Source of the DNA: Acidovorax sp. GBBC 1281
GTDB lineage: Bacteria > Pseudomonadota > Gammaproteobacteria > Burkholderiales > Burkholderiaceae_C
Reading direction: 5' to 3'
Assembly (NCBI RefSeq): GCF_028473645.1
Contig: NZ_CP097269.1
Location: forward strand, 504,001 to 568,000
DNA: 64,000 bases
The translations under genes were made by a program, and so were the position numbers. Position 1 is the first letter of the stretch. Each line of letters starts with the position of its first letter. Shown one piece after another: positions 4,126-48,493 of the stretch. The notes under the pieces were generated by a model that saw nothing but the letters and a program-made list of their open reading frames with translations, was not told the origin of the DNA and did not search any database.

Positions 4126-5880
4126 ATGAAGAAGCTTTTGATGGCGGCCGGCCTGGCCCTGGGCCTTTCGGCCTGCTCCAGCGTGACCGCGCCGACCGAC
4201 GCCGCGCCCTTGGCGGGCACGCTCAAGAAACCCGATCTGGACCGCCTGGTGGTCGCCGAGACGGGCGCGCCCAGCGGCGATTTCAGCGCGTTCCTCGAAC
4301 GCGCGGTGCGCACCTACCCTGCGCTGGCGCCCAGCGTGAAGGCGTATGGGTCCAAGGCCACGCTGGCGGGCGACGACCTGGTGAACATCAGCCGCCTGCT
4401 GGGCCTGTACAACCGGCTGCACCACCACACGGCGGTGATCGACACGACCGCGAAGATGGTGGCCATTCCCACGGTGCGCGCCGACAAGGTGCCCCCGCAC
4501 GAGGACAAGGCCATCATCGCCTTCGGCACGCTGGTCGAAGGCATGGCCAAGGACTTCGGCCTGCAGTACCGCAACGTGGACAACCGCATCTTCGAAGTGA
4601 AGCTGCCCGGCACGGGCACCGAAGAATTCGGCATCCTCACGCACGCCGACGTGGTGCCCGTGGTGGCCGACGAATGGGTGCTGGACGACGGCACCCGGCT
4701 GGACCCGTTCAAGCTCACGCGGGTGGGCGGCAACCTGTACGGGCGCGGCTCCATCGACGACAAGGGCTCCATCGCCGCGGTGCTGTACGCGATGAAGGCG
4801 GTCAAGGACAGCGGCCTGCCGATGGCCCGCACCATCCGCCTCATGGTCGAGACGACCGAAGAGACGGGCGGCGACGCGATGAAGTACTACCGCGCCAAGA
4901 CCCAGCTGCCCGAGTACAACATCGTGCTGGACAGCAAGTACCCCGCCGTGGTGGCCGAAAAGGGTTCGGGCGCGCTGCGCGCCTCGTTCGCCCTGGCACC
5001 TGCCGCCGCCGTGCCGGCCGGTGCGGTCACCATCGCTGCGATGGCGGGCGCCGCCTCGGCCAACGCCGTGCCGCAGACGGCCACCGCGCGCCTCACGGGC
5101 GGTGATCTGGCCGCCGCGGCGCAGCGCCTGGGCGCGGCCCGAGAGGCGTTCATCGCCAAGTACGCGGGCCAGGGTGGCCCCTTCGCCATCGACATCGTCC
5201 AGGACGGCGCCGCGCTGACGGTCAAGGTCACGGGCACGTCGGCCCACGGCTCGCGCCCCGAAGAGGGCGTGAACCCGCTGCCGCGCCTGGCGCTGTTCCT
5301 GCAGGAGTCCGGCGTGCCGCTGGCCGCCAACGGCTACGCCAGCGCGGTGCGCTACATCGCCGACCTGTACGGCACCGACTACCTGGGCCGCACGATGGGC
5401 CTGGCGTACAGCGACGACTTCATGGGCCCGCTCACGATGTCGCCCAACCTGGTGCGCGAGAAGGACGGCAAGGTCGATGTGCTGGTGAACGTGCGCATGC
5501 CGCGCGGCAGCACGGCCGACGTGCTGACGAAGGCCACCGCCGCGCGCATCCAGGCGTGGGGCGCGCAGGCCGGCGTGGCGGTCGAGGTGGACCACAGCCA
5601 GGGCGAGTGGATGACGCGCGACCCCAAGGGCGCCTGGCTTTCCACGCTGCTCAACACCTTCGGCGACACCACGGGCCTGGAGGCCAAGCCCGTGCCCACG
5701 GCCGGCAGCACCACGGCCAAGCTGATGCCCAACGCGATCAACTTCGGCCCCGCAATGCCGGGCAAGAAGTACACGGCCCACAACGCGAAGGAATTCAAGG
5801 AAGTGGCCGACCTCGACGCCGACATGCAGATGTTCACCGAGATGCTGGTGCGCATCGGCAACCTGCCGCAGATGCAGTGA
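4126..5880 (+). CDS. M20-family dipeptidase, lipoprotein
   Basis: A 584-residue metallopeptidase of the M20 (PepV-like) group that would release amino acids from dipeptides. The N-terminus is a lipoprotein signal with lipobox LSAC, the lipidated residue being C17, so it should be anchored in the cell envelope. Probable zinc ligands are H173 and D175 (THADVVP), D211 (RGSIDDKG), the E245-E246 pair (ETTEETGG), D269, and a C-terminal His in AHNAKEF. The central part forms the lid/dimerisation insert. ATG 4126 is preceded by GAGGA and gives a clean signal peptide. It stands between oxyR and dps but has no obvious functional link to them. Confidence 0.85.
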   Translation: MKKLLMAAGLALGLSACSSVTAPTDAAPLAGTLKKPDLDRLVVAETGAPSGDFSAFLERAVRTYPALAPSVKAYGSKATLAGDDLVNISRLLGLYNRLHHHTAVIDTTAKMVAIPTVRADKVPPHEDKAIIAFGTLVEGMAKDFGLQYRNVDNRIFEVKLPGTGTEEFGILTHADVVPVVADEWVLDDGTRLDPFKLTRVGGNLYGRGSIDDKGSIAAVLYAMKAVKDSGLPMARTIRLMVETTEETGGDAMKYYRAKTQLPEYNIVLDSKYPAVVAEKGSGALRASFALAPAAAVPAGAVTIAAMAGAASANAVPQTATARLTGGDLAAAAQRLGAAREAFIAKYAGQGGPFAIDIVQDGAALTVKVTGTSAHGSRPEEGVNPLPRLALFLQESGVPLAANGYASAVRYIADLYGTDYLGRTMGLAYSDDFMGPLTMSPNLVREKDGKVDVLVNVRMPRGSTADVLTKATAARIQAWGAQAGVAVEVDHSQGEWMTRDPKGAWLSTLLNTFGDTTGLEAKPVPTAGSTTAKLMPNAINFGPAMPGKKYTAHNAKEFKEVADLDADMQMFTEMLVRIGNLPQMQ

Positions 5881-6033
5881 CCCCGGGCGGCCGCTGGCCG
5901 CCCTGCATGCGCTAAAGTGTTTCAGGCGCCCGGGCGCCACGCCTCCCCGGCAGCGGCGGGGGCCCGCCCGGGCCGGCAAGATGGCAGCGGCAACGCGACG
6001 CATCGTTCAGTTCAGCACCCGAAGGAGTTCTCC

Positions 6034-6558
6034 ATGGCCAAGACCCCCAAGACCCCCCTTGCCCGCGCCGGCGCCAGCGGCGCACCGCGCATCAACATCG
6101 GCATCAGCGACAAGGACCGCGCGGCCATCGCGCAAGGCCTGTCGCGCCTGCTGGCCGACACCTACACGCTGTACCTCACCACCCACAATTTCCACTGGAA
6201 CGTGACGGGCCCGATGTTCAACACGCTGCATACCATGTTCATGGGGCAGTACACCGAGCTGTGGAACGCGGTGGACCCGGTGGCCGAGCGCATCCGTTCG
6301 CTGGGCCATGCCGCGCCGGGCTCGTACGCCCAGTTCGGCAAGCTCACCTCGCTGCCCGACGCGCCCACCGAGCCGCCCCACGCGCTGGAGATGGTGCGCA
6401 TCCTGGTCGAAGGCCACGAGGCCGTCGCCCGCACGGCGCGCGAGCTGTTCCCAGTGGCCGACAAGGCCAGCGACGAACCCACGGCCGATCTGCTGACCCA
6501 GCGCCTCACGGTGCACGAGCAGACCGCCTGGATGCTGCGCTCGCTCCTGGAGGAATAA
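6034..6558 (+). CDS. dps: Dps-type DNA starvation/stationary phase protection protein
   Basis: A 174-residue ferritin-like protein that stores iron and shields DNA under stress, usually as a dodecamer. The family core is clear: [17 protein letters not shown], then [20 protein letters not shown]. Ferroxidase ligands H54, H66, D81 and E85 are present, but the acidic ligand that corresponds to D67 of E. coli Dps is M70 (LHTMFMGQ). A lysine- and alanine-rich N-terminal tail of about 20 residues could contact DNA. ATG 6034 follows GAAGGAG. It lies downstream of oxyR, consistent with the known control of dps by OxyR in other bacteria, though no OxyR site was identified. Confidence 0.9.
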
Positions 6559-11277: not shown

Positions 11278-12543
11278 TCAGAAGCGATGGCGGATCGACA
11301 GCGTCAGACTGTTGACGTCCTTGCCCGGGGCTGACGCCACGCCGCCGAGGAAGCCGTTGCCGCCCAGCAGGTCCTGCGAGGTGTTCTTGTTTTCCAGGTG
11401 CGTCAGCACGGCGCTGACGTCGGTGCGCTTGGACAGGGCGTAGGTGTAGGCCGCGCCGTAGGAATAGCGGTCGGCATCGAACGGCCGCCGGTCATTCATG
11501 TTGTTGTAGGCCACGGTCACGGTGTGCGGGCCGGTGGTGATGCGGTAGCCGATCTGGAACAGGCGGGCATCCTGCTTGAAGGCCTGCACGAAGGCGTTCT
11601 GCACCAGCGTGGCCACGGGGGCGGTGGCCGGGTTGGCCGACAGGCCCGTGGCAATGGTCGACAGGTCGGTGGGGTGGTCGTCCTTGATGGTGGCGTACTG
11701 GCCGGACAGCGTACCCGGCCCGATGTCCAGCGTCGCGCCCAGGATGGCGTTGGTGAGCGACTTCTGGCCCAGCTCGTTGTTGCGGGTGTTGTAGCCGCCG
11801 CCGAAGGAATAGCCGTCGCCCTTGTAGATGGCCATGATGCCCAGCAGCCGCCGTGCGCTCGGCTTGCCGGCCACTTCGCCCGCCGCATACATGGCCGTGG
11901 CGGTGAGCCCGTCCTTTTGCAGCGCGTACTGGATCGAATTGCTCACGCGGATGTCGAAGGAGGCCGGAATCGCCACCAGCTGCCCCAGGGCCAGGCTGGA
12001 CTCGGTTTTCATCGCGTCGAAGTTGCCGGTGGCCAGGTAGCCGGGCGTGTACTGGCGGCCGACGGTGAAGGCGCCGAACGGCGTGACCAGGCCGGTGAAG
12101 ATCTGCCGGTCGAAAATGCTGTTGCCCAAGTTGACGCCCACCTGGGAGCCGATCTGCGCGGCCACGGCCGAGACCGCGGGTTGCAGGGCGGCGGGCAGGC
12201 CCAGCGAGGAGGCGGTGCTGAGCCGGTCCGGCAACTGGCCCAGGGAGGGCGGGCGGTTGCTGAGGCTGCCGGTATCGGCTTCGATCCGCGATTCGAGCGT
12301 GAAGATCGCGCGGTAGCCGCCTCCCAGGTCCTCATTGCCCTTGAAGCCCAGGCGGGACCCTTCCATGTTGCCGCTGGTGAGCCGCGTCAGGTTGCCGCCG
12401 GGGGCGCCGGTCATGTAGTTGATGCCCAGGTCCACCAGGCCATACATGGTGAGGCTGCTGGTGCCTGGCGGCGTGCTCTGCGCCATGGCGACCGACGAGG
12501 CGCAGCCAAGAACGACGGCCGACAGCGTACGCATTTTCTTCAT
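11278..12543 (-). CDS. Gram-negative general porin
   Basis: A 421-residue trimeric beta-barrel porin of the betaproteobacterial type, placed in the outer membrane for diffusion of small solutes. The signal peptide MKKMRTLSAVVLGCASSVAMA ends before QSTPPGTSSLTMYGLVD, the usual first strand. The protein ends in SIRHRF with the terminal Phe needed for barrel assembly. ATG 12541-12543 has AAGGA-like sequence in front; an upstream extension of the frame lacks a signal sequence. It is divergent from the glycerol transporter operon and shares its regulatory region, so it may let glycerol through the outer membrane. Confidence 0.9.
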   Translation of the reverse strand: MKKMRTLSAVVLGCASSVAMAQSTPPGTSSLTMYGLVDLGINYMTGAPGGNLTRLTSGNMEGSRLGFKGNEDLGGGYRAIFTLESRIEADTGSLSNRPPSLGQLPDRLSTASSLGLPAALQPAVSAVAAQIGSQVGVNLGNSIFDRQIFTGLVTPFGAFTVGRQYTPGYLATGNFDAMKTESSLALGQLVAIPASFDIRVSNSIQYALQKDGLTATAMYAAGEVAGKPSARRLLGIMAIYKGDGYSFGGGYNTRNNELGQKSLTNAILGATLDIGPGTLSGQYATIKDDHPTDLSTIATGLSANPATAPVATLVQNAFVQAFKQDARLFQIGYRITTGPHTVTVAYNNMNDRRPFDADRYSYGAAYTYALSKRTDVSAVLTHLENKNTSQDLLGGNGFLGGVASAPGKDVNSLTLSIRHRF

Positions 12544-12729
12544 AAGGACTTCCGAATGGCAAAAAGGGGAGTGGAGGGGCGGCGACAGCATGCGGCGCTT
12601 TTGGAAGGCTGAGACTAGAGGCAACGCCTCGGTCGGTAAAGGAGGGGAATGCCGGACTGGGCATTTGTGACACAGGGGGAAACCCGGAACCCGGTCCCGG
12701 CCGAATGCGGCCCGCCGCATCGCGGCGTT

Positions 12730-12769
12730 GAAGCGAACGAAAACGAATCAATCGAGGGTAAACCTTGAT
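12730..12769. promoter_or_regulatory. Candidate GlpR operator between porin and glpS
   Basis: Second copy of the 40-base motif described at 10975-11014: GAAGCGAACGAAAACGAA followed by AGGGTAAACCTTGAT. Further CGAACGAAA-type half sites continue at 12775-12785. It lies in the 342-base divergent region between the porin gene and the glycerol ABC transporter, about 115 bases before glpS and 190 before the porin start, so one regulator could control both. No clear sigma-70 boxes were assigned. Confidence 0.6.
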
Positions 12770-12885
12770 TCGATACGAACGAAAAAGAACAAAAATGAAG
12801 CCATTCGAAGCGCGCAGGTTCCGTCAGGCACTGCGCGTTTTGCACGTTCAACTGGCCGCAAGGGGCCTTCAGGAAAGGTTGCGTG

Positions 12886-13968
<1,083 letters not shown>

Positions 13969-13969
13969 G

Positions 13970-15042
13970 ATGGCGCGCATCAATCTGGACCTGGCGCACG
14001 CCTACAAGCCCAACCCGCAGCAGGACAGCGACTATGCGCTGCTGCCCCTGTCGATGGAGTTCCGCGACGGCGGCGCCTATGCCTTGCTGGGGCCCTCGGG
14101 CTGCGGCAAGACGACCATGCTCAACATCATGTCGGGCCTGCTCGTGCCCTCGCAGGGCCGCGTGCTGTTCGACGGTAAGGACGTGACCCACGCGAGCCCG
14201 CAGGAGCGCAACATCGCGCAGGTGTTCCAGTTCCCGGTGATCTACGACACCATGACGGTGGCCGAGAACCTCGCCTTTCCGCTCAAGAACCGCAAGGTGC
14301 CAGAGGCCCAGATCCGCCAGCGCGTCGGCCAGATCGCCGAGATGCTGGACATGAGCGGGCAGCTCGACCAGCGCGCTTCGGGCCTGGCGGCCGATGCCAA
14401 GCAGAAGATCTCGCTCGGGCGCGGTCTGGTGCGCTCGGACGTGGCGGCCGTGCTCTTCGATGAGCCCCTCACGGTGATCGATCCGCACCTGAAGTGGCAA
14501 TTGCGCCGCAAGCTCAAGCAGATCCACCACGAACTCAAGCTGACCCTGATCTACGTGACCCACGACCAGGTGGAGGCGCTGACCTTCGCCGAAGAGGTGG
14601 TGGTGATGACGCGCGGGCGCGCCGTGCAGGTGGGCGCGGCCGATGCCCTGTTCGAGCGGCCGCAGCACACCTTCGTGGGTCACTTCATCGGCTCGCCGGG
14701 CATGAACTTCCTGCCCGCGCAGGGCGAGGCGGATGCGATCGTCGTCGCCGGCCACCGCCTGGCGTGGCCCGCGGGCAAGGCTTTGCCGCCCGGCGCGCTG
14801 CAGGTGGGCGTGCGCCCGGAGTACCTGGCCGTCGCGGCCGCAGGGCAGCCCGGCGCGCTGCGCTGCACGGTGGAGAAGGTGCAGGACATCGGCACCTATT
14901 TCCTGCTCACGGCCCGAGTGGGCGAGCACATGCTCAAGGCCCGGATGGGCACGGGCGAGCCGGTGCCATCGGCGGGCGACACGGTCTGGCTGCAGGTGCT
15001 GGGGCAGCACACCTGCTTCTACCAAAACGAGGAACTGCTGGC

Positions 15043-42058: not shown

Positions 42059-43450
42059 TTGAATGTTGAAATCACGCCGGCCGTGGCGTTGGAAACGATG
42101 GTGGTGCTGCGGCCTTCCGGGCAGTTGGCGGCCGGCGAGTCGAGGGCCAGGGCCTGGAGTGCGTGGGAGGCCTTCGCGGACTCCGGCGTGGAGCCCCTGG
42201 GGTTCTACCTGGACGGCTGGGAGGGCGATGTCCCCGCCGCGTTGGCGGCGCAATTGCGCGCCAGCGTCTGGTGGGACCGCCCGCTGTTCGTGGCGCCCGG
42301 CGATGCGGCCCCGCCCTGGCTTGCCGATGGTGCCGCGCCGTATGCCGCCGCCCTGGCCGCCAGCGAGCTGTGCCTGGCCGTGCGGCGCAGCCTGCCGCTC
42401 GATCCCGCGGCCCTGCATTTCGACGAGCGGGTGCTGTATTTCCTGTGCCTGCGCGACGGTGCCCAGTTGCAGCCGCAATGCGACCGTGCCAGCCTGGCGC
42501 TGTACCGGTACCCGATGGTCGAGGCGCTGGCCCGGCCCGGCGACGATGCCGATGCGTGCCTGGCCGGCCTCACGCGGCGCCGGCTGCTGGAGCCCGCCGA
42601 ACTTGTGGACCGCACGCGGCACTGCCGCACCTGCAGCAGCGCGCACATCCACTACCTGGACGTGTGCCCGCACTGCACCAGCATCCACATCCGCAAGTCG
42701 CCCTCGCTGCATTGCTTCGCCTGCGGCCACGTGGCGCCCGAGGCCGACTTCCATGCCGATGGCGCGCTCTCGTGCCCCAAGTGCAACGCCATGCTGCGGC
42801 ACATCGGCGTGGACTACGACCGGCCGCTCACGCAGTACGCCTGCGGCAGCTGCCACCACGTATTCGTGGAGACCCAGGTGGTGGCCCGCTGCCTGGATTG
42901 CCGCACCACGGCCGAGCCCAGCACGCTGGATGTGCGCGAGATCTCATCACTGCGCCTGAGCCCGCAGGGCCGCGCCGCGCTGCGTGCCGGGCAGATCCAG
43001 GAATCGTTCGCCGCGCTCGACTCCGCGCACTACGTGCCGCCCGCCGATTTCCGCCGCATGCTCGACTGGGCGCTGGCCACGCATGCGCGCCACGGCGAGA
43101 TGCGTTTCGCGCTGATGCTGGTGGAGTTCCAGAACGCGGCCGAGGTGATCGAACGCGAAGGCGCCTCGCGCGTGTTCCTGATGCTCGACGAGTTCGCGCG
43201 GCGCCTGCACGAGCTGCTGCGCACCTCGGACATCACCACGCGCACGCAGGAGGAATGCCTGTGGCTTTTCCTGCCGTTCTCCTCGCCCGAGGGACTGGCC
43301 GCGCGCCTGCAGGCGTCGCTCCAGAGCGCGGGCGGCGGCGCGGCCGCGATGCCGCTGCGCACGCGCATCCGGCACCTGGAGGTGCCGGGCGGCCTGCGCT
43401 CCGGCGAGCAGGCCGCGGACCTGATGGCGCGGCTGCGCGACGGGGCCTGA
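42059..43450 (+). CDS. TackOD1-like CxxC-rich metal-binding protein with degenerate GGDEF end
   Basis: 463 residues, probably a regulator of the polysaccharide operon. The middle contains six CxxC pairs (C189/C192, C203/C206, C219/C222, C239/C242, C262/C265, C278/C281), enough for about three zinc ribbons, as in TackOD1-type proteins. From about 330 the sequence resembles a diguanylate cyclase fold (MRFALMLVEFQNAAEVI, then LLRTSDITTRTQEECLWLFLP), but the GGDEF loop is replaced by RTQEEC, so it should be catalytically dead and may only sense a ligand. The start is TTG 42059; an in-frame stop lies just upstream and the first ATG is about 13 codons later, so the N-terminus is uncertain. No signal peptide or membrane segment. 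It ends four bases before the GT2 gene. Confidence 0.7.
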   Translation: MNVEITPAVALETMVVLRPSGQLAAGESRARAWSAWEAFADSGVEPLGFYLDGWEGDVPAALAAQLRASVWWDRPLFVAPGDAAPPWLADGAAPYAAALAASELCLAVRRSLPLDPAALHFDERVLYFLCLRDGAQLQPQCDRASLALYRYPMVEALARPGDDADACLAGLTRRRLLEPAELVDRTRHCRTCSSAHIHYLDVCPHCTSIHIRKSPSLHCFACGHVAPEADFHADGALSCPKCNAMLRHIGVDYDRPLTQYACGSCHHVFVETQVVARCLDCRTTAEPSTLDVREISSLRLSPQGRAALRAGQIQESFAALDSAHYVPPADFRRMLDWALATHARHGEMRFALMLVEFQNAAEVIEREGASRVFLMLDEFARRLHELLRTSDITTRTQEECLWLFLPFSSPEGLAARLQASLQSAGGGAAAMPLRTRIRHLEVPGGLRSGEQAADLMARLRDGA

Positions 43451-43454
43451 ACGC

Positions 43455-44780
43455 ATGTGGGAGCAGGTGGTGTTCGCGTTCGTCACGCTGTTTTCCAGCG
43501 CGACGCACCAGTCGTGGGTGGAGCTGGCGCTCAAGTTCTTCCCGTTCGTGGTGCTGCTGGAGGCGCCGTTCTTCCTGCTCGTGTGCGCGGGCATGGTGAA
43601 GTACGGCCTGCGCGAGCACCGGCCCTACCTGCAGCGCGAGCGCTATCCGCGCGTGTCCTGCGTCATCACCTGCTACTCCGAGGGCGACGACGTGCGCAAG
43701 ACCATCCAGTCGCTCGCCCAGCAGATCTACCCGGGCTTCATCGAGATCATCGCCGTGGTGGACGGCGCGGTGCAGAACGAGTCCACGCTGCGTGCGGCCC
43801 GCGGCGCGCGCGAACTGCTGGCCGGTGCCCGCCGGCGCGCGCTGGTGGTGCTGCCCAAGTGGCAGCGCGGCGGCCGCGTGTCGTCGCTGAACGCCGGGCT
43901 ATCGATCGCCAGCGGCGAGATCGTGATGGCGCTCGATGGCGACACCTCGTTCGACAACGACATGGTGCGCCATGCCACGCGGCATTTCGACGACCCCGGC
44001 GTGGTGGGCGTCGCCGGCAGCCTGCGGGTGCGCAACGCCCGCCGCTCGCTGGCCGCGCGCATGCAGGCGCTGGAATACATGCTGTCCATCGGCGCGGGCA
44101 AGACGGGGCTGTCGGAGTTCAACATCGTCAACAACATCTCGGGGGCGTTCGGTGTGTTCCGCGCCAGCTTCATCCGCAACCTGGGCGGCTGGGACGCGGG
44201 CACGGCCGAGGACCTGGACATGACGATGCGCATCAAGCAGTACTTCGGCCGCCATCCGGGCCTGCGCATCGTGTTCGACCCGCATGCCGTGGGCCACACC
44301 GACGCGCCGGACACCTGGCGCGTGTTCTTTCGCCAGCGCCTGCGCTGGGACGGCGACATGTTCTACATCTTCATCCGCAAGTTCCGCCTGAACCTGCGCC
44401 CGCGCCTGCTGGGCTGGCGCAATTTCCTCTTCGTGGTGGTGAACGGCCTGGTGATGCAGGTGCTCATGCCCTTCCTCATCGTGGCCTACACCGGCGTGAT
44501 GCTGCTCACGCTGCCGGTGGGGGCGGTGCTGGGGGTTCTGGGGTTCGTCTACGCGGTGTACCTCGCGGCACTGCTGTTCTATTTCCTGCTGTACCTCGTG
44601 GCCGTGTCCGAGCGGCCCCGGCACGACGCGGCCTACCTGCGGTTCCTGCCGCTGTTTCCGCTCTTCGCCTTCGTCAACCGCGTGCACTGCACGTTCTCGA
44701 TCCTGCAGGAGGTCTTCCTGAAGACCCACCTGGACTCCGCGATGGCCCCCTGGTGGGTGCTGCGCAAAACCAAGTTCTGA
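43455..44780 (+). CDS. Processive family-2 glycosyltransferase, membrane-bound
   Basis: 441 residues, related to hyaluronan, cellulose and PNAG synthases. One N-terminal helix (about 25-47), then the catalytic domain with D103 (VVDG), the D161-G-D163 nucleotide-sugar site (ALDGDTS), the base-containing motif AEDLDM at 251-256, and Q294-R-L-R-W298, the QxxRW mark of processive enzymes. Three or four helices follow (FLFVVVNGLVMQVLMPFLIV, then LPVGAVLGVLGFVYAVYLAA and LLFYFLLYLVAV) to form the export pore. It would polymerise and push a glycan across the inner membrane. The sugar donor cannot be told from sequence. No PilZ domain, so direct c-di-GMP control as in BcsA is not visible. Confidence 0.88.
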   Translation: MWEQVVFAFVTLFSSATHQSWVELALKFFPFVVLLEAPFFLLVCAGMVKYGLREHRPYLQRERYPRVSCVITCYSEGDDVRKTIQSLAQQIYPGFIEIIAVVDGAVQNESTLRAARGARELLAGARRRALVVLPKWQRGGRVSSLNAGLSIASGEIVMALDGDTSFDNDMVRHATRHFDDPGVVGVAGSLRVRNARRSLAARMQALEYMLSIGAGKTGLSEFNIVNNISGAFGVFRASFIRNLGGWDAGTAEDLDMTMRIKQYFGRHPGLRIVFDPHAVGHTDAPDTWRVFFRQRLRWDGDMFYIFIRKFRLNLRPRLLGWRNFLFVVVNGLVMQVLMPFLIVAYTGVMLLTLPVGAVLGVLGFVYAVYLAALLFYFLLYLVAVSERPRHDAAYLRFLPLFPLFAFVNRVHCTFSILQEVFLKTHLDSAMAPWWVLRKTKF

Positions 44781-44781
44781 T

Positions 44782-46983
44782 ATGCCGCATCGCCTGGGGG
44801 AACGTCTTTTGCCATGGGCCGCGGTGCTGTGCCTGATGGGGTGGGGCGCGGGCGCGCCGGCGGCCGAGCCGGCCCCGCCGCTGGCGCCTCCCGTGGTGGC
44901 GCTGGAGGCGCCGCCCGCACTGCCCGCCGACGTGCTGGCCCAGGCGCCCGCCACCCTGGCGGAGCTGGAAGGCTGGGCCGAGGTGCAGGCCCCGGCCGTG
45001 CGGCTGGCGCAGGCCGAGGCCGACGTGGCCGCGCAGCGCACCGGCGCGGCGCGCGCCGGGCAGGGCGCGCGCGTGTTCGGCGGCGCCAGCCTTGGGGGCG
45101 TGCGCGAATCCGTCACCGACACCACCAGCCGCGACTACCAGCGCGGCCAGGCCCAGGTCGGCGTGCGTTGGCCGCTGCTGGGCAGCCGCGAGGCCCAGCA
45201 GCGTGGCGTGCGCGAGGCCGAGGGCGCCGAATCGCTGGGCCGGCTGCGGCAGGCCCAGGCGCAGCGGAACGTGCGGCTGGCCGTGCGCCAGGCCTATGTG
45301 CGGTTCGCGCACAGCCTGCAGCGGCGCCTGCTGGCGCAGGAATTCCTGTCCGTTCGCGCGCCCGTGGAGGCGCAGCTGCTGCACCGGCGCCAGGCCGGCG
45401 TGATGCTGGAGGCCGACCGGCTCGACCTGTCGGCGCTGTTCGACGGCGTGCAGGCCGCGCACGATGCCCAGCGCGCCGCGCAGTCCAGCGCGCTGCGCAC
45501 GCTCGCGCGGCTGGCGGGGCAGCCCGTGGCGCGGGTGGACACGGCCATCCCGGGCTGGCCCGCACGCTGCATGGACCGCGAGGCGCTGCTCGCGCAGGCG
45601 GGCGACGACCCCGCCATCGCCCAGGCCCGCACCGAGCGCGACACCGCCGCCGCGCAGCTGGAGAACGCGCAGCACACGGGCCTGGAGGCCGGCGTGTCGC
45701 TGTCGCAGTCGGTGAGCCGCGACATCGGCGGCCAGCCGGGCCGCAGCACCGTCGTCGGCGTGGATTTCTCCATGCCCCTGGAGTGGCGCGCGCAGCGCGA
45801 CGCGGCCCGGGGCCAGCTGCAGAGCGAGCGCGACCGGGCCGATCAGTTGATGGAACTGCGCCTGGGAGAATACCGCTCGGCGCTGGACCAGGCCCTGGCC
45901 GACTGGCAATTGCGCGGCGGCGAGATGCCCGGCTTTTTGAACCGGCTGCAGGCGGCCCAGGAGGGCCTGCGCGTGGCGCGCCTGCGGCTCGATGCCTTCG
46001 ACGGCGACGGCTACTCGCGCCTGCTGATGGCGCGCTACGCCCTCTACCAGGCTTCGCTGCAGGTCGTCGACGGCTCGGAGCTCCGGGCGCTGGCCGCGCT
46101 CGACGTGCTGGCGCTCGGCAGCCCCTGCCCGCCGCAGCCGGGCGCGGCCGAGCCCCTGCCCGACCTGCTCGCGCCCGTGCTCACCGCCCTGTCCGCGCTG
46201 CCGCCGGCGGCGCGGGGCGAGTCGGCCCCGCAAGCGCGTGCGCCGGGCCTGGGGTGGTTCTCCTGGAGCGGGCAGGCGCTGCTGGACCGGCCCTCCCGGC
46301 TCGACGCCATGCCGCAGGACAGCCAGCGCGTGCTGCTGTCCTTCACCAGCGCGCAGCTGCGCGCCCTGGCCCGCCCGCCGGGCCGGGCCGCCCTGCGGCG
46401 CCTGCTGGAGCACGCGCACGATCGGGGCATGGCGGTGGAGCTGATGCTGGGCGAGCCCAGCTGGGTGCTGCCCGCCGGGCGCGAGGCCCTGCTGGCGCTG
46501 CTGGCGCCGCTGCGCCACCTGCCGTTCGACGGGCTCAACCTCGACCTGGAGCGCAGCCAGCTCGACGCCGCCGACCAGCCCGGCTGGGAGGACGGCACCG
46601 TGGCCACGCTGCGCGCCGTGCGCGCCGCCACGCCCTGGCCCCTGGCGCTGACCACGCACTACCGCGAGCTGCAGGTGCCCGGCCTCGCGCAGCGCCTGCA
46701 GGCCGCCGGCGCCACCGAGGTCGTGGCCATGGTCTACGTGAGCCGGCCCGAACGCGCGGCCGAGCTGGCGCGCCCGCTGGTGCGGCAGGCCGTGCCCGGC
46801 CTGCGGGTGGCGGTGGCCCAGAGCATGGAGGACTCGCTCACCCGCGAGGAAAGCAGCCATGGCGTGGGCCGCGCCGCGGCCCTGCAGCGCTGGCGCGCGC
46901 TCGCACAGTCCCTGTCCGACCTGCCGGCGTTCGCCGGCGTGGTGGTGCAGGCGTGGGAAGATTTTGAAGGGGCGGCCCCGTGA
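44782..46983 (+). CDS. TolC-like outer-membrane protein fused to a GH18-like TIM barrel
   Basis: 733 residues in two parts. After a signal peptide, residues about 55-450 form long coiled helices of the TolC/outer-membrane efflux family (NVRLAVRQAYVRFAHSLQRR, repeated twice in the usual manner). A Pro/Ala-rich linker (about 455-490) leads to a C-terminal domain whose alternating strands fit a TIM barrel: VLLSFTS, MAVELMLGEPSW, FDGLNLDLE, LALTTHY, VVAMVYVS, LRVAVAQSM, FAGVVVQAWEDF. The D583-G-L-N-L-D-L-E590 segment resembles the DGxDxDxE motif of family-18 glycosidases with Asn in place of the first inner Asp; E590 would be the acid. It starts two bases after the synthase stop. It probably exports and trims the polymer made by the neighbouring GT2. 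Confidence 0.8.
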   Translation: MPHRLGERLLPWAAVLCLMGWGAGAPAAEPAPPLAPPVVALEAPPALPADVLAQAPATLAELEGWAEVQAPAVRLAQAEADVAAQRTGAARAGQGARVFGGASLGGVRESVTDTTSRDYQRGQAQVGVRWPLLGSREAQQRGVREAEGAESLGRLRQAQAQRNVRLAVRQAYVRFAHSLQRRLLAQEFLSVRAPVEAQLLHRRQAGVMLEADRLDLSALFDGVQAAHDAQRAAQSSALRTLARLAGQPVARVDTAIPGWPARCMDREALLAQAGDDPAIAQARTERDTAAAQLENAQHTGLEAGVSLSQSVSRDIGGQPGRSTVVGVDFSMPLEWRAQRDAARGQLQSERDRADQLMELRLGEYRSALDQALADWQLRGGEMPGFLNRLQAAQEGLRVARLRLDAFDGDGYSRLLMARYALYQASLQVVDGSELRALAALDVLALGSPCPPQPGAAEPLPDLLAPVLTALSALPPAARGESAPQARAPGLGWFSWSGQALLDRPSRLDAMPQDSQRVLLSFTSAQLRALARPPGRAALRRLLEHAHDRGMAVELMLGEPSWVLPAGREALLALLAPLRHLPFDGLNLDLERSQLDAADQPGWEDGTVATLRAVRAATPWPLALTTHYRELQVPGLAQRLQAAGATEVVAMVYVSRPERAAELARPLVRQAVPGLRVAVAQSMEDSLTREESSHGVGRAAALQRWRALAQSLSDLPAFAGVVVQAWEDFEGAAP

Positions 46984-48101
46984 AGATCCAGTTCGACATT
47001 CCGCCGGGTTCGGCGCAAGAGGCCAACGGCCTGCCGGTGCGCTACGCCGCCGCCAAGCGGCAGGTGCCGCGCTGGCGCTGGTACCTGCTGCTGGCCATGG
47101 TGCTTGCAGCGCCGGCCTATCTGCTGATGCGCTTTGCCATCGCCTACTGGTGGGAGACGGCGCCCGGCTTCGTCGTTACCGAGCAGGTGGCCGTGGGCGT
47201 GCACACCTCTGGGCGCGTGGCGCGCATCGTGGCCGTGGGCGAGACCGTGCCCGCGGGCCAGCCGGTGATGGTGCTGGAGCCGCCCACGGCCGCGGGGGCG
47301 CCGGCCTCCACGGCCCTGGCCGCGCCGCTGGCCGCCGCCACCGATCCGGCCGTGGCCCAGGCCGTGGCGCAGGGCCAGGCCGCGCGCCTGGCCGGGCTGA
47401 AGGAGGCCGAGCGCCTGGCGCTGCGGCAGGCGGCCCTGCACCAAGAGCGCGTGCGCACCATGGAAGGCTTGCGCCTGCAGGGCGCGGCCACGCGCCAGGA
47501 ACTGGATGGCGTGCGCCTGCAGGCGATGCAGGCCCAGGCCGGCGTGGACCGCGCGCGGGCCGAACGGGCCGAGAACGCCGCGCAGGTGGCGCGCGACCGC
47601 GCACTCGCCCAGGCGGCGCTGCGCGCCCAGAGCCCCGTGCCGCTCGCGGCCCCGGGGGCGCCGGGCACGAACGCGGGCACGGGGCCGCCGGCCGCCGGCG
47701 CGGCGCTGCCGTCGCCCGACGTGGTCGCGCCCTTCGACGCCACCGTGGTGCGCCAGCTCGTTCGCCGCGGCGAGTGGGTGGTGCCCGGCACCGACGTGGC
47801 CGTGCTGCAGGGGCGGGGGGCGCCCATGGTGCACGCCTACGTGCTGCCCAACGAGGCGCGCTACGCCCAGGTGGGGCGCCAGGCCAGCCTGCAATTCATG
47901 GACGGCGGGCGCATCCGCGCCGAGGTGGTCGGCGTGGTGGCCGAGGCCGAACGCCTTCCCGCCGAGCGCGTCTCTCCGCTGTCGCCGCGCATGCCGTCGA
48001 TCGTGGTGCGCCTGCGCCCGCTGGAGCCGCTGCCCGCGGCCTACCGCATCCACCAGTTGCCGCTGGACGTGCGCTTCGACTGGGTGTGGAGCGGTTTTTG
48101 A
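46980..48101 (+). CDS. HlyD-family periplasmic adaptor
   Basis: 373 residues, inner-membrane anchored adaptor expected to join the synthase to the TolC-like channel. One helix near 34-52 (WYLLLAMVLAAPAYLLMRF), two lipoyl-like halves (TSGRVARIVAVGETVPAGQP and DATVVRQLVRRGEWVVPGTD), an alpha-hairpin between them rich in Ala/Gln/Arg, and a beta-barrel toward the C-terminus. It starts with GTG 46980, overlapping the previous stop by four bases (GTGA). Adaptors of this kind in glycan export resemble Alg44 without its PilZ part. It is the last gene of the operon. Confidence 0.85.
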   Translation: MKIQFDIPPGSAQEANGLPVRYAAAKRQVPRWRWYLLLAMVLAAPAYLLMRFAIAYWWETAPGFVVTEQVAVGVHTSGRVARIVAVGETVPAGQPVMVLEPPTAAGAPASTALAAPLAAATDPAVAQAVAQGQAARLAGLKEAERLALRQAALHQERVRTMEGLRLQGAATRQELDGVRLQAMQAQAGVDRARAERAENAAQVARDRALAQAALRAQSPVPLAAPGAPGTNAGTGPPAAGAALPSPDVVAPFDATVVRQLVRRGEWVVPGTDVAVLQGRGAPMVHAYVLPNEARYAQVGRQASLQFMDGGRIRAEVVGVVAEAERLPAERVSPLSPRMPSIVVRLRPLEPLPAAYRIHQLPLDVRFDWVWSGF

Positions 48102-48228: not shown

Positions 48229-48458
48229 GCTGGCATCCACCCGTCCGCACGGTGCACCTAGCAGGCCGGCTGGCCTTCCATGTGCCCGACACGGTTTCAA
48301 CCCACGCGCCCCACTTGGGGCGCGACACGCTGGACACATCCCAGTCCGAAATGTCGCCGTTGTTTCAATCCCACGCGCCTGCGAGAGGCGCGACGTCTGG
48401 CAGGCATCGAGCCCCCGTTCATCGCTTAGTTTCAACCCACGCGCCCCTGCGGCGCGAC
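48229..48458. CRISPR. Decayed type I-C-like CRISPR array
   Basis: Three related units begin GTTTCAA: 48294-48326 (33 bases), 48362-48394 (33) and 48429-48458 (30). They share CCACGCGCC, a variable centre and GGCGCGAC, forming the palindromic stem seen in type I-C repeats (complement ends GTGGATTGAAAC in typical arrays). The intervals are unique sequence of 35 and 34 bases, the normal spacer size. A fourth, more degraded unit may lie at 48229-48260 with the same periodicity. Repeats differ by substitutions and a 3-base deletion. No cas gene or leader is recognisable in the window, so the array is probably inactive. The rest of the 392-base gap holds only the repeat at 48116. Confidence 0.65.
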
Positions 48459-48493
48459 ACAGGGGCCGACGCCCCTGCCGATCCCTCAGCGAA

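Follow-up and report, generated by a model that had tools for sequence, protein, structure and literature searches.

For cyanobacterial cellulose, a tripartite route has been put forward by which a synthase-made polysaccharide would be exported: the XcsAB-TolC model joins a family 2 glycosyltransferase (GT2), HlyD and TolC. The review that presents it states that the model is without experimental validation and sees a difficulty in the fact that its components do not share a single operon (PMC12430437; statements on this and the other cited papers refer to parts of their text). In rhizobia, the mixed-linkage beta-glucan depends on BgsA-BgsB, a GT2 together with an HlyD-domain/membrane-fusion protein (PMC9495663, PMC7902896). 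On the regulatory side, cyclic di-GMP (c-di-GMP) is bound via an I-site by two degenerate GGDEF proteins, PelD and BcsE, the former of which needs a second arginine as well (PMC8461298). The TackOD1 domain has been described in archaea with the architectures TackOD1, REC-TackOD1 and REC-wHTH-TackOD1, and the 2018 paper that named it called its function obscure (PMC5847659). The DNA analysed here (the window) is a 64,000 nt stretch of Acidovorax sp. GBBC 1281 (contig NZ_CP097269.1, positions 504,001 to 568,000), in which four open reading frames (ORFs), all on the plus strand at 42059-48101 and with junctions of +4, +1 and -4 bases, encode a TackOD1-GGDEF regulator, a processive GT2 synthase, a TolC-type channel fused to a glycosidase-like barrel, and an HlyD-type adaptor. 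An earlier note, made from the letters of the window, had described a compact four-gene operon with overlaps or gaps of a few bases, and that layout is borne out.

The observed set of genes, their motifs and predicted folds and their joint conservation point, with a probability of roughly 0.7, to a self-contained synthase-dependent exopolysaccharide system with a TolC exit, a tethered hydrolase and a c-di-GMP switch. From what is known of its family, the GT2 would polymerise a sugar, probably an N-acetylhexosamine, from nucleotide sugars and push the chain through the inner membrane. The families concerned and the adjacency of their genes suggest that the HlyD adaptor would pass the chain to the TolC part, which would carry it across the outer membrane; the fold and residues of the barrel suggest that this domain, tethered to TolC and probably on the periplasmic side, would trim or clear the chain at the channel mouth. 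In the cytosol, the TackOD1-GGDEF protein would bind c-di-GMP at its I-site and activate the synthase, much as PelD acts in the Pel system, a role proposed from the I-site itself and from the analogy with PelD and BcsE. Such a scheme would couple polymerisation to export and trimming, as the earlier note had proposed, and we infer the same coupling here.

The regulator and the synthase

The first gene (42059..43450, TTG start, 463 amino acids) encodes a protein whose residues 122-299 (42422..42955) match TackOD1 (PF18551) at 192.9 bits against a Pfam cut-off of 32, followed by a GGDEF match of 19.9 bits, which is under the cut-off of 23.8. The CxxC-rich, TackOD1-like character previously read from the sequence is therefore sound, the domain being one of zinc ribbons, and 11 Cys and one His of the protein are each kept in at least 147 of 148 TackOD1-GGDEF sequences. 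This set comprises 28 sequences from fetched loci, including one without a GT2 neighbour (L084), and 120 listed of 191 database relatives. The GGDEF catalytic signature is present in 0/148, and R388 and D391 of the RxxD motif (43220..43231), the putative c-di-GMP I-site, are the sole fully invariant residues of the GGDEF domain (148/148); the database rows are partly redundant, so that this count overstates independence, and the result is the same in the 28 locus sequences, where identity falls as low as about 20 percent. At position 416, 142 sequences have Arg and 6 have Lys. A profile of the 28 TackOD1 proteins matches GGDEF domains in the PDB (6zxm, E 3.3e-14; WspR; PleD, 2e-7). PelD_GGDEF (PF16963) is not among the Pfam matches listed for the window regulator, and in one relative (L022) it is the best GGDEF-type match at 23.6 bits, under the cut-off of 27. 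Because the RxxD motif is invariant while the active site is lost, the GGDEF end is probably a c-di-GMP receptor rather than a dead domain; the earlier description of a 'dead GGDEF-like end' holds for catalysis and probably fails for binding.

By hydropathy, the GT2 has three predicted membrane helices, the HlyD protein one and the TackOD1 protein none. A clear receiver domain precedes TackOD1 in another relative (P0129) and, by analogy, the N-terminal 120 residues of the window regulator could be a receiver that has decayed. The RxxD motif is also kept in the one strong TackOD1-GGDEF protein that has no GT2 gene beside it (L084:7624-9012), which lies among apparent response-regulator, kinase and phosphate-binding genes, a combination that suggests that the receptor may serve other outputs.

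The second gene (43455..44780, 441 amino acids) has GT2 family matches of up to 70.5 bits (Glyco_tranf_2_3, Pfam). Its DxD motif, D161-x-D163 (43935..43943), and its QRLRW motif at residues 294-298 (44334..44348; Q294, R295, R297 and W298) are invariant in 27 sequences, as are D103, D253 and D255, so the processive-synthase signature D, DxD, D, QxxRW is present in 27/27 and the processive GT2 named in the earlier note, with these same two motifs, is confirmed. PgaC (TIGR03937) is the nearest NCBIfam model of the window GT2, at 140.2 bits where the cut-off of 422.3 is not reached, and it is the best model for all five cluster GT2s scanned (117 to 158 bits, cut-off 422). NodC, a chito-oligosaccharide synthase, is among the NCBIfam relatives (82.3 bits), and a profile comparison with the PDB places hyaluronan, chondroitin, heparosan, chitin and cellulose synthases among the structural relatives. 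No PilZ match was found on the GT2 at E up to 1 (Pfam). Together with the GH18-like hydrolase described below, these relatives modestly favour an aminosugar polymer, probably an N-acetylhexosamine polymer such as one of N-acetylglucosamine (GlcNAc). A second synthase-type GT2 in the same genome (L151, C1:1667009-1668154) stands beside a WecB-type UDP-GlcNAc 2-epimerase, a neighbour which suggests that it perhaps belongs to another aminosugar polymer system.

The channel-barrel fusion and the adaptor

The third gene (44782..46983, 733 amino acids) encodes a TolC-type outer-membrane channel with a C-terminal (beta/alpha)8 barrel. Its OEP match is 36.9 bits against a Pfam cut-off of 22. An AlphaFold2 model (mean pLDDT, the predicted local distance difference test, of 89.1; predicted TM-score, pTM, of 0.58) begins like a TolC protomer, with four beta strands and long helices, and continues with eight strand-helix repeats, the pTM making the relative placing of the two parts unreliable. 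Foldseek with the whole model returns TolC and its relatives on top (best E 6e-17), in agreement with the TolC-like channel fused to a TIM barrel that had been noticed earlier. The C-terminal 250 residues match no Pfam family, and no deacetylase domain was matched by Pfam in this protein. Modelled by itself from 25 aligned barrels, the barrel (residues 484-733, 46231..46980) reaches a pLDDT of 96.6 and a pTM of 0.93. It carries a putative catalytic pair, D588-x-E590 (46543..46551), and a putative catalytic tyrosine, Y652 (46735..46737), in an M-x-Y motif of strand 6 that a profile aligns with the MxYD of a chitinase; all three residues are kept in 63/63 fusions and in 25/25 barrels, stand-alone ones included. 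The best PDB profile match of the barrel is a chain titled putative GH97 (10yv, E 1.2e-11), in whose aligned sequence the M-x-Y motif is not seen. With its D-x-E pair and tyrosine, the predicted domain appears to be GH18-like, and its fold and residues suggest that it hydrolyses a glycan. In Acidovorax sp. NO-1 (L017:9872-12015) the fusion gene is in two frames, a possible natural loss of function or an error of sequencing.

The fourth gene (46980..48101, 373 amino acids) encodes the HlyD-type adaptor anticipated by the earlier note (HlyD_3, 31.7 bits vs a Pfam cut-off of 22.2), which begins with a short cytosolic tail followed by one membrane helix (residues 36-54). Its NCBIfam scores are 34.3 of 390.8 bits for EmrA, 27.4 of 94.9 for RND_mfp and 16.8 of 208.65 for type I HlyD, and the fusion scores 36.3 of 225.15 bits with the TolC model; for both proteins this is less than one third of the cut-off in each efflux or type I model listed. 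In a tree with paralogs whose reading frames were picked by profile, 30 operon HlyDs from all gene-order versions split from 16 other HlyD-type proteins of the window's own genome with support of 89/86 (86 percent of 200 bootstrap trees), which is graded moderate. The TolC tree is weaker: 25 operon rows, one of them a fusion without other cluster genes (L048), separate with support of 98/95 from 6 own-genome paralog rows, which are the rows above 15 bits from 30 OEP loci, with the more distant paralogs dropped and two rows (L104 and L109) being one protein.

Recurrence and gene order

The four genes form a conserved unit that recurs in many bacteria. In a scan of named genomes, nine loci had a relative of the fusion, and all nine carry the TackOD1, GT2, TolC-barrel and HlyD genes in the same order; they come from Acidovorax SUPP3334, a metagenome-assembled genome (MAG) labelled Novosphingobium, Melaminivora, Diaphorobacter, Acidovorax NO-1, Caldimonas, a Comamonas MAG, Parachitinimonas and Comamonas terrae, the last with the barrel motifs in its fusion. 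In Melaminivora alkalimesophila CY1 (L015:8847-9854), an insertion element with a DDE transposase lies between the GT2 and TolC-barrel genes, and is a natural disruption of the operon.

Three wider samples were also covered. In the order-level sample of 300 genomes, the fusion has a match in 10 (in 3 of them by the TolC part only), and 9/10 carry the cluster; the tenth match (G111) is weak (E 1e-5), has three in-frame stops and has no cluster gene within 1.5 kb. In the class-level sample of 369 genomes, TackOD1 is matched in 27, strongly in 17 (E below 1e-50) and weakly in the other 10, these last being known from the match table alone. GT2 and HlyD genes are adjacent to TackOD1 in 16/17 of the strong cases, with one cluster in pieces (G904); in the exception (G879) the TackOD1 gene lies amid apparent phosphate and two-component genes, and one genome (G947) has a second TackOD1 gene (L098) without a cluster gene beside it. 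Among 398 genomes of the phylum there are 23 matches, 17 of which are weak and of the TolC type (E 2e-10 to 9e-4). Neighbourhoods were looked at in 9 of the 22 matching genomes other than the window's own: the cluster is present in four (G321, G360, G644 and G550), one has the fusion without the other genes (G578), and no cluster was found in four (G304, G557, G403 and G441). Two pairs of entries, L029 (G279) with L020 (Parachitinimonas) and G1028 with L013 (Acidovorax SUPP3334), are each probably one genome. Within the window's genus the fusion is present in 3/17 genomes, so the operon is patchy.

Further, over 30 loci the tree distances of the TackOD1, GT2 and HlyD proteins are correlated (r of 0.85, 0.90 and 0.89, with a maximum of 0.37 in 2000 permutations), in part because the host genomes share descent. 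Chance or artefact as the source of the gene set is ruled out by its conservation in distant genomes. Overall, the wide co-occurrence of these genes upholds the earlier proposal of an operon of the synthase type that has a TolC/HlyD pair to itself, as opposed to a set of four proteins that never co-occur elsewhere.

The cluster exists in four gene-order versions. In version a, TackOD1-GT2-TolC/barrel-HlyD, are the window, the named loci, L022-L025, L045-L047, L085 and L089, the last with its TackOD1 and fusion genes each in two pieces. Version b, TolC/barrel-HlyD-TackOD1-GT2, is found in L049, L088, L090, L092, L093 and L097, and in L095 with several frame breaks. Version c has five genes, barrel-HlyD-TackOD1-GT2-TolC, with the barrel separate (L026 and L027, from one genus, and L028). 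Version d is TackOD1-GT2-HlyD alone (L083, L086, L087, L091, L094 and L096), or 6/16 of the class-sample clusters. This range of versions indicates that the core is the regulator, the synthase and the adaptor, to which the channel and hydrolase are an add-on, fused or split, and the separate barrel gene within the same cluster of three genomes indicates that the barrel belongs to the system. The single TolC-hydrolase protein emphasised in the earlier note is thus real in the window and is not the essence of the system, given the separate barrel in three genomes and the six clusters beside which neither part was found.

Several version-d clusters have further genes nearby. In L087, a GH16 glycosidase gene (11471-12382) overlaps the HlyD stop of the three-gene operon, as if a different hydrolase had replaced the barrel, and in L094 a PAS-GAF-GGDEF-EAL gene (12182-14401) starts 81 bases after HlyD. 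A long gene begins 14 bases after HlyD in L096, and in L086 a polysaccharide deacetylase gene (5427-6308) lies about 2 kb upstream of the cluster on the opposite strand.

In the window itself, promoter and terminator scans gave no convincing match at the operon start, and one terminator-like match is present at the very end of the operon (48072-48093), from a scan with 6 found vs 2.8 expected. Directly after the operon, at 48294-48460, is a CRISPR-like mini-array with two spacers and three repeats, each about 32-36 bases long and beginning GTTTCAA (starts 48294, 48362 and 48429), which are spaced 67-68 bases apart and have palindromic cores; cas1 was the only cas gene searched for, and its single match in the genome is about 3.9 Mb along the contig.

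Alternative readings and known systems

Several observations weigh against the proposed exopolysaccharide system or its parts. RxxD motifs are common in ordinary GGDEF domains, and the presence of one is by itself no proof of a receptor role. The PgaC score of the GT2 is far below its cut-off, and PgaC is likewise the best model for the second GT2 of this genome (124 bits), so that the identity of the sugar is weakly indicated; with the GH16 gene of L087, a glucan would fit as well. In the barrel, the GH18 strand-4 motif DxxDxDxE is incomplete: its third D and its E are invariant, the first D is present in 56/63, and the second D is replaced by His, Asn or Gln, or by Cys in stand-alone barrels. 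Membership in GH18 by sequence model was rejected, as GH18 is absent from the 21 Pfam families listed for the 25 barrels at E up to 10, a negative that is limited by HMMER filters which remove most matches above E 0.1. Foldseek with the barrel alone ranks human O-GlcNAcase (GH84) first (E 1.3e-6, TM-score 0.42), followed by aldolases, a GH18 endo-beta-N-acetylglucosaminidase (E 9e-6, TM-score 0.57) and GH10, a list from model comparison that does not choose one glycosidase family. Moreover, BLAST with the cluster proteins at E 1e-4 and a motif search of the listed ORFs found no TolC or barrel relative in the fetched stretches of the six version-d clusters, where the other flanking genes were only partly scanned for Pfam; there, either the system can do without the conduit or it draws on one from elsewhere.

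The first alternative is that the system secretes short oligosaccharides, as a diffusible signal or a glycan fragment, with the barrel at the TolC entrance cutting every chain. The location of the barrel within the channel protein itself, its putative catalytic residues, unvarying in the sequences seen, and the kinship of the GT2 with NodC would all suit this, but it is unlikely given that 6/16 class-sample clusters have no barrel nearby and that the hydrolases of known synthase systems trim while polymer still leaves. For example, PelA partly hydrolyses Pel before export (PMC12022489). A second alternative, also improbable, makes HlyD a partner of the synthase (a co-polymerase) with no continuous TolC duct, so that the GT2 and TackOD1 proteins would make a polysaccharide or an envelope glycan and the TolC-barrel protein would handle this product separately; HlyD is indeed present in every cluster version seen and TolC is not, and the N-terminal cytosolic tail and membrane helix of HlyD would fit, but where TolC is present it adjoins HlyD or shares a compact cluster with it, and an HlyD-TolC pairing is the usual arrangement of these families. 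Finally, the idea that adaptor and channel are those of common drug efflux or type I secretion, lying by accident beside a glycosyltransferase, has in its favour a fold-level likeness to TolC and EmrA-type adaptors (34.3 bits) and is nevertheless very improbable, being rejected on the model scores and the moderately supported HlyD tree, together with the TolC tree, the agreeing tree distances and a four-gene unit without an RND, MFS or ABC pump gene; the grouping with drug-efflux systems against which the earlier note had set its proposal was not seen.

Returning to the exopolysaccharide system, a broader and more tentative proposal is that it represents a widespread, undescribed machine of the Gammaproteobacteria (in the GTDB sense, which includes Burkholderiales), in which TackOD1-GGDEF would be a novel type of c-di-GMP receptor, the product an aminosugar polymer and, where the set is full, the exit a TolC duct with a GH18-like hydrolase. 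Searches of the open literature by title or abstract start, with most subscription papers outside their scope, found no description of a TackOD1/GT2/HlyD/TolC operon, of a TackOD1 regulator of a synthase or of a TolC-barrel fusion. If the reading is true, the operon would be, to our knowledge, the first to encode the whole of a GT2-HlyD-TolC conduit for a polysaccharide, and it would give the bacterial TackOD1 domain a function. At issue is whether a TolC-type channel can export the polysaccharide of a processive synthase, and the presence of the parts in one operon, in several gene orders, makes this question directly testable. The fused and split barrels are likewise a natural experiment on why a hydrolase would be tethered to an exit channel. 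For TackOD1, whose function the naming paper left obscure (PMC5847659), the proposal is that it forms part of a synthase's c-di-GMP receptor.

Several described systems share features with the operon. PgaABCD resembles it in that PgaC is the nearest curated model of the GT2, and PgaABCD too has a hydrolase barrel on an envelope protein; it differs in the score (140.2 bits vs 422.3), in its TPR-barrel porin, where TolC is found here, and in that no deacetylase domain was matched in the barrel protein here. The earlier contrast, in which HlyD replaces Alg44-like parts, is weak, since the periplasmic part of Alg44 is usually described as HlyD-like. XcsAB-TolC likewise combines a GT2 synthase, an HlyD-like adaptor, a TolC-like channel and a separate glycanase, but has a PilZ (or PCR) domain on the synthase, a TolC encoded elsewhere and an endoglucanase as its glycanase (PMC12430437), whereas here the GT2 has no PilZ match, a TackOD1-GGDEF regulator is present and the operon itself encodes TolC, as a fusion with a GH18-like barrel. 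BgsA-BgsB is similar in its two-gene core of GT2 and HlyD under c-di-GMP control and differs in that c-di-GMP is bound by the C-terminus of BgsA; the parts of its descriptions drawn on name no TackOD1 regulator, TolC or hydrolase (PMC9495663, PMC7902896).

Among the regulators, PelD is also a degenerate GGDEF protein with an RxxD motif that acts as receptor for an exopolysaccharide system without PilZ, but it has membrane helices and a GAF domain, and the Pel polymerase is a GT4 (PMC8461298); the regulator here has zinc ribbons and no predicted membrane helix, and the polymerase is a GT2. BcsE shares a cytosolic degenerate GGDEF-like domain and I-site binding of c-di-GMP, and differs in belonging to the cellulose synthase complex with BcsQ and BcsR, with zinc ribbons not mentioned in the part of the source used (PMC8461298). 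The archaeal TackOD1 proteins contain the same zinc-ribbon domain, with receivers attached to it as well (PMC5847659), whereas in the operon the domain precedes a degenerate GGDEF. The 'uncommon kind' of the earlier note is tempered by precedents, GT2 with HlyD and TolC in XcsAB-TolC and GT2 with a membrane-fusion protein in the rhizobial glucan system. The TPR-plus-beta-barrel porin through which the synthase-dependent secretion class exits is absent and a TolC fold is present instead, and there is a good chance that the cluster is a new class of synthase-dependent system.

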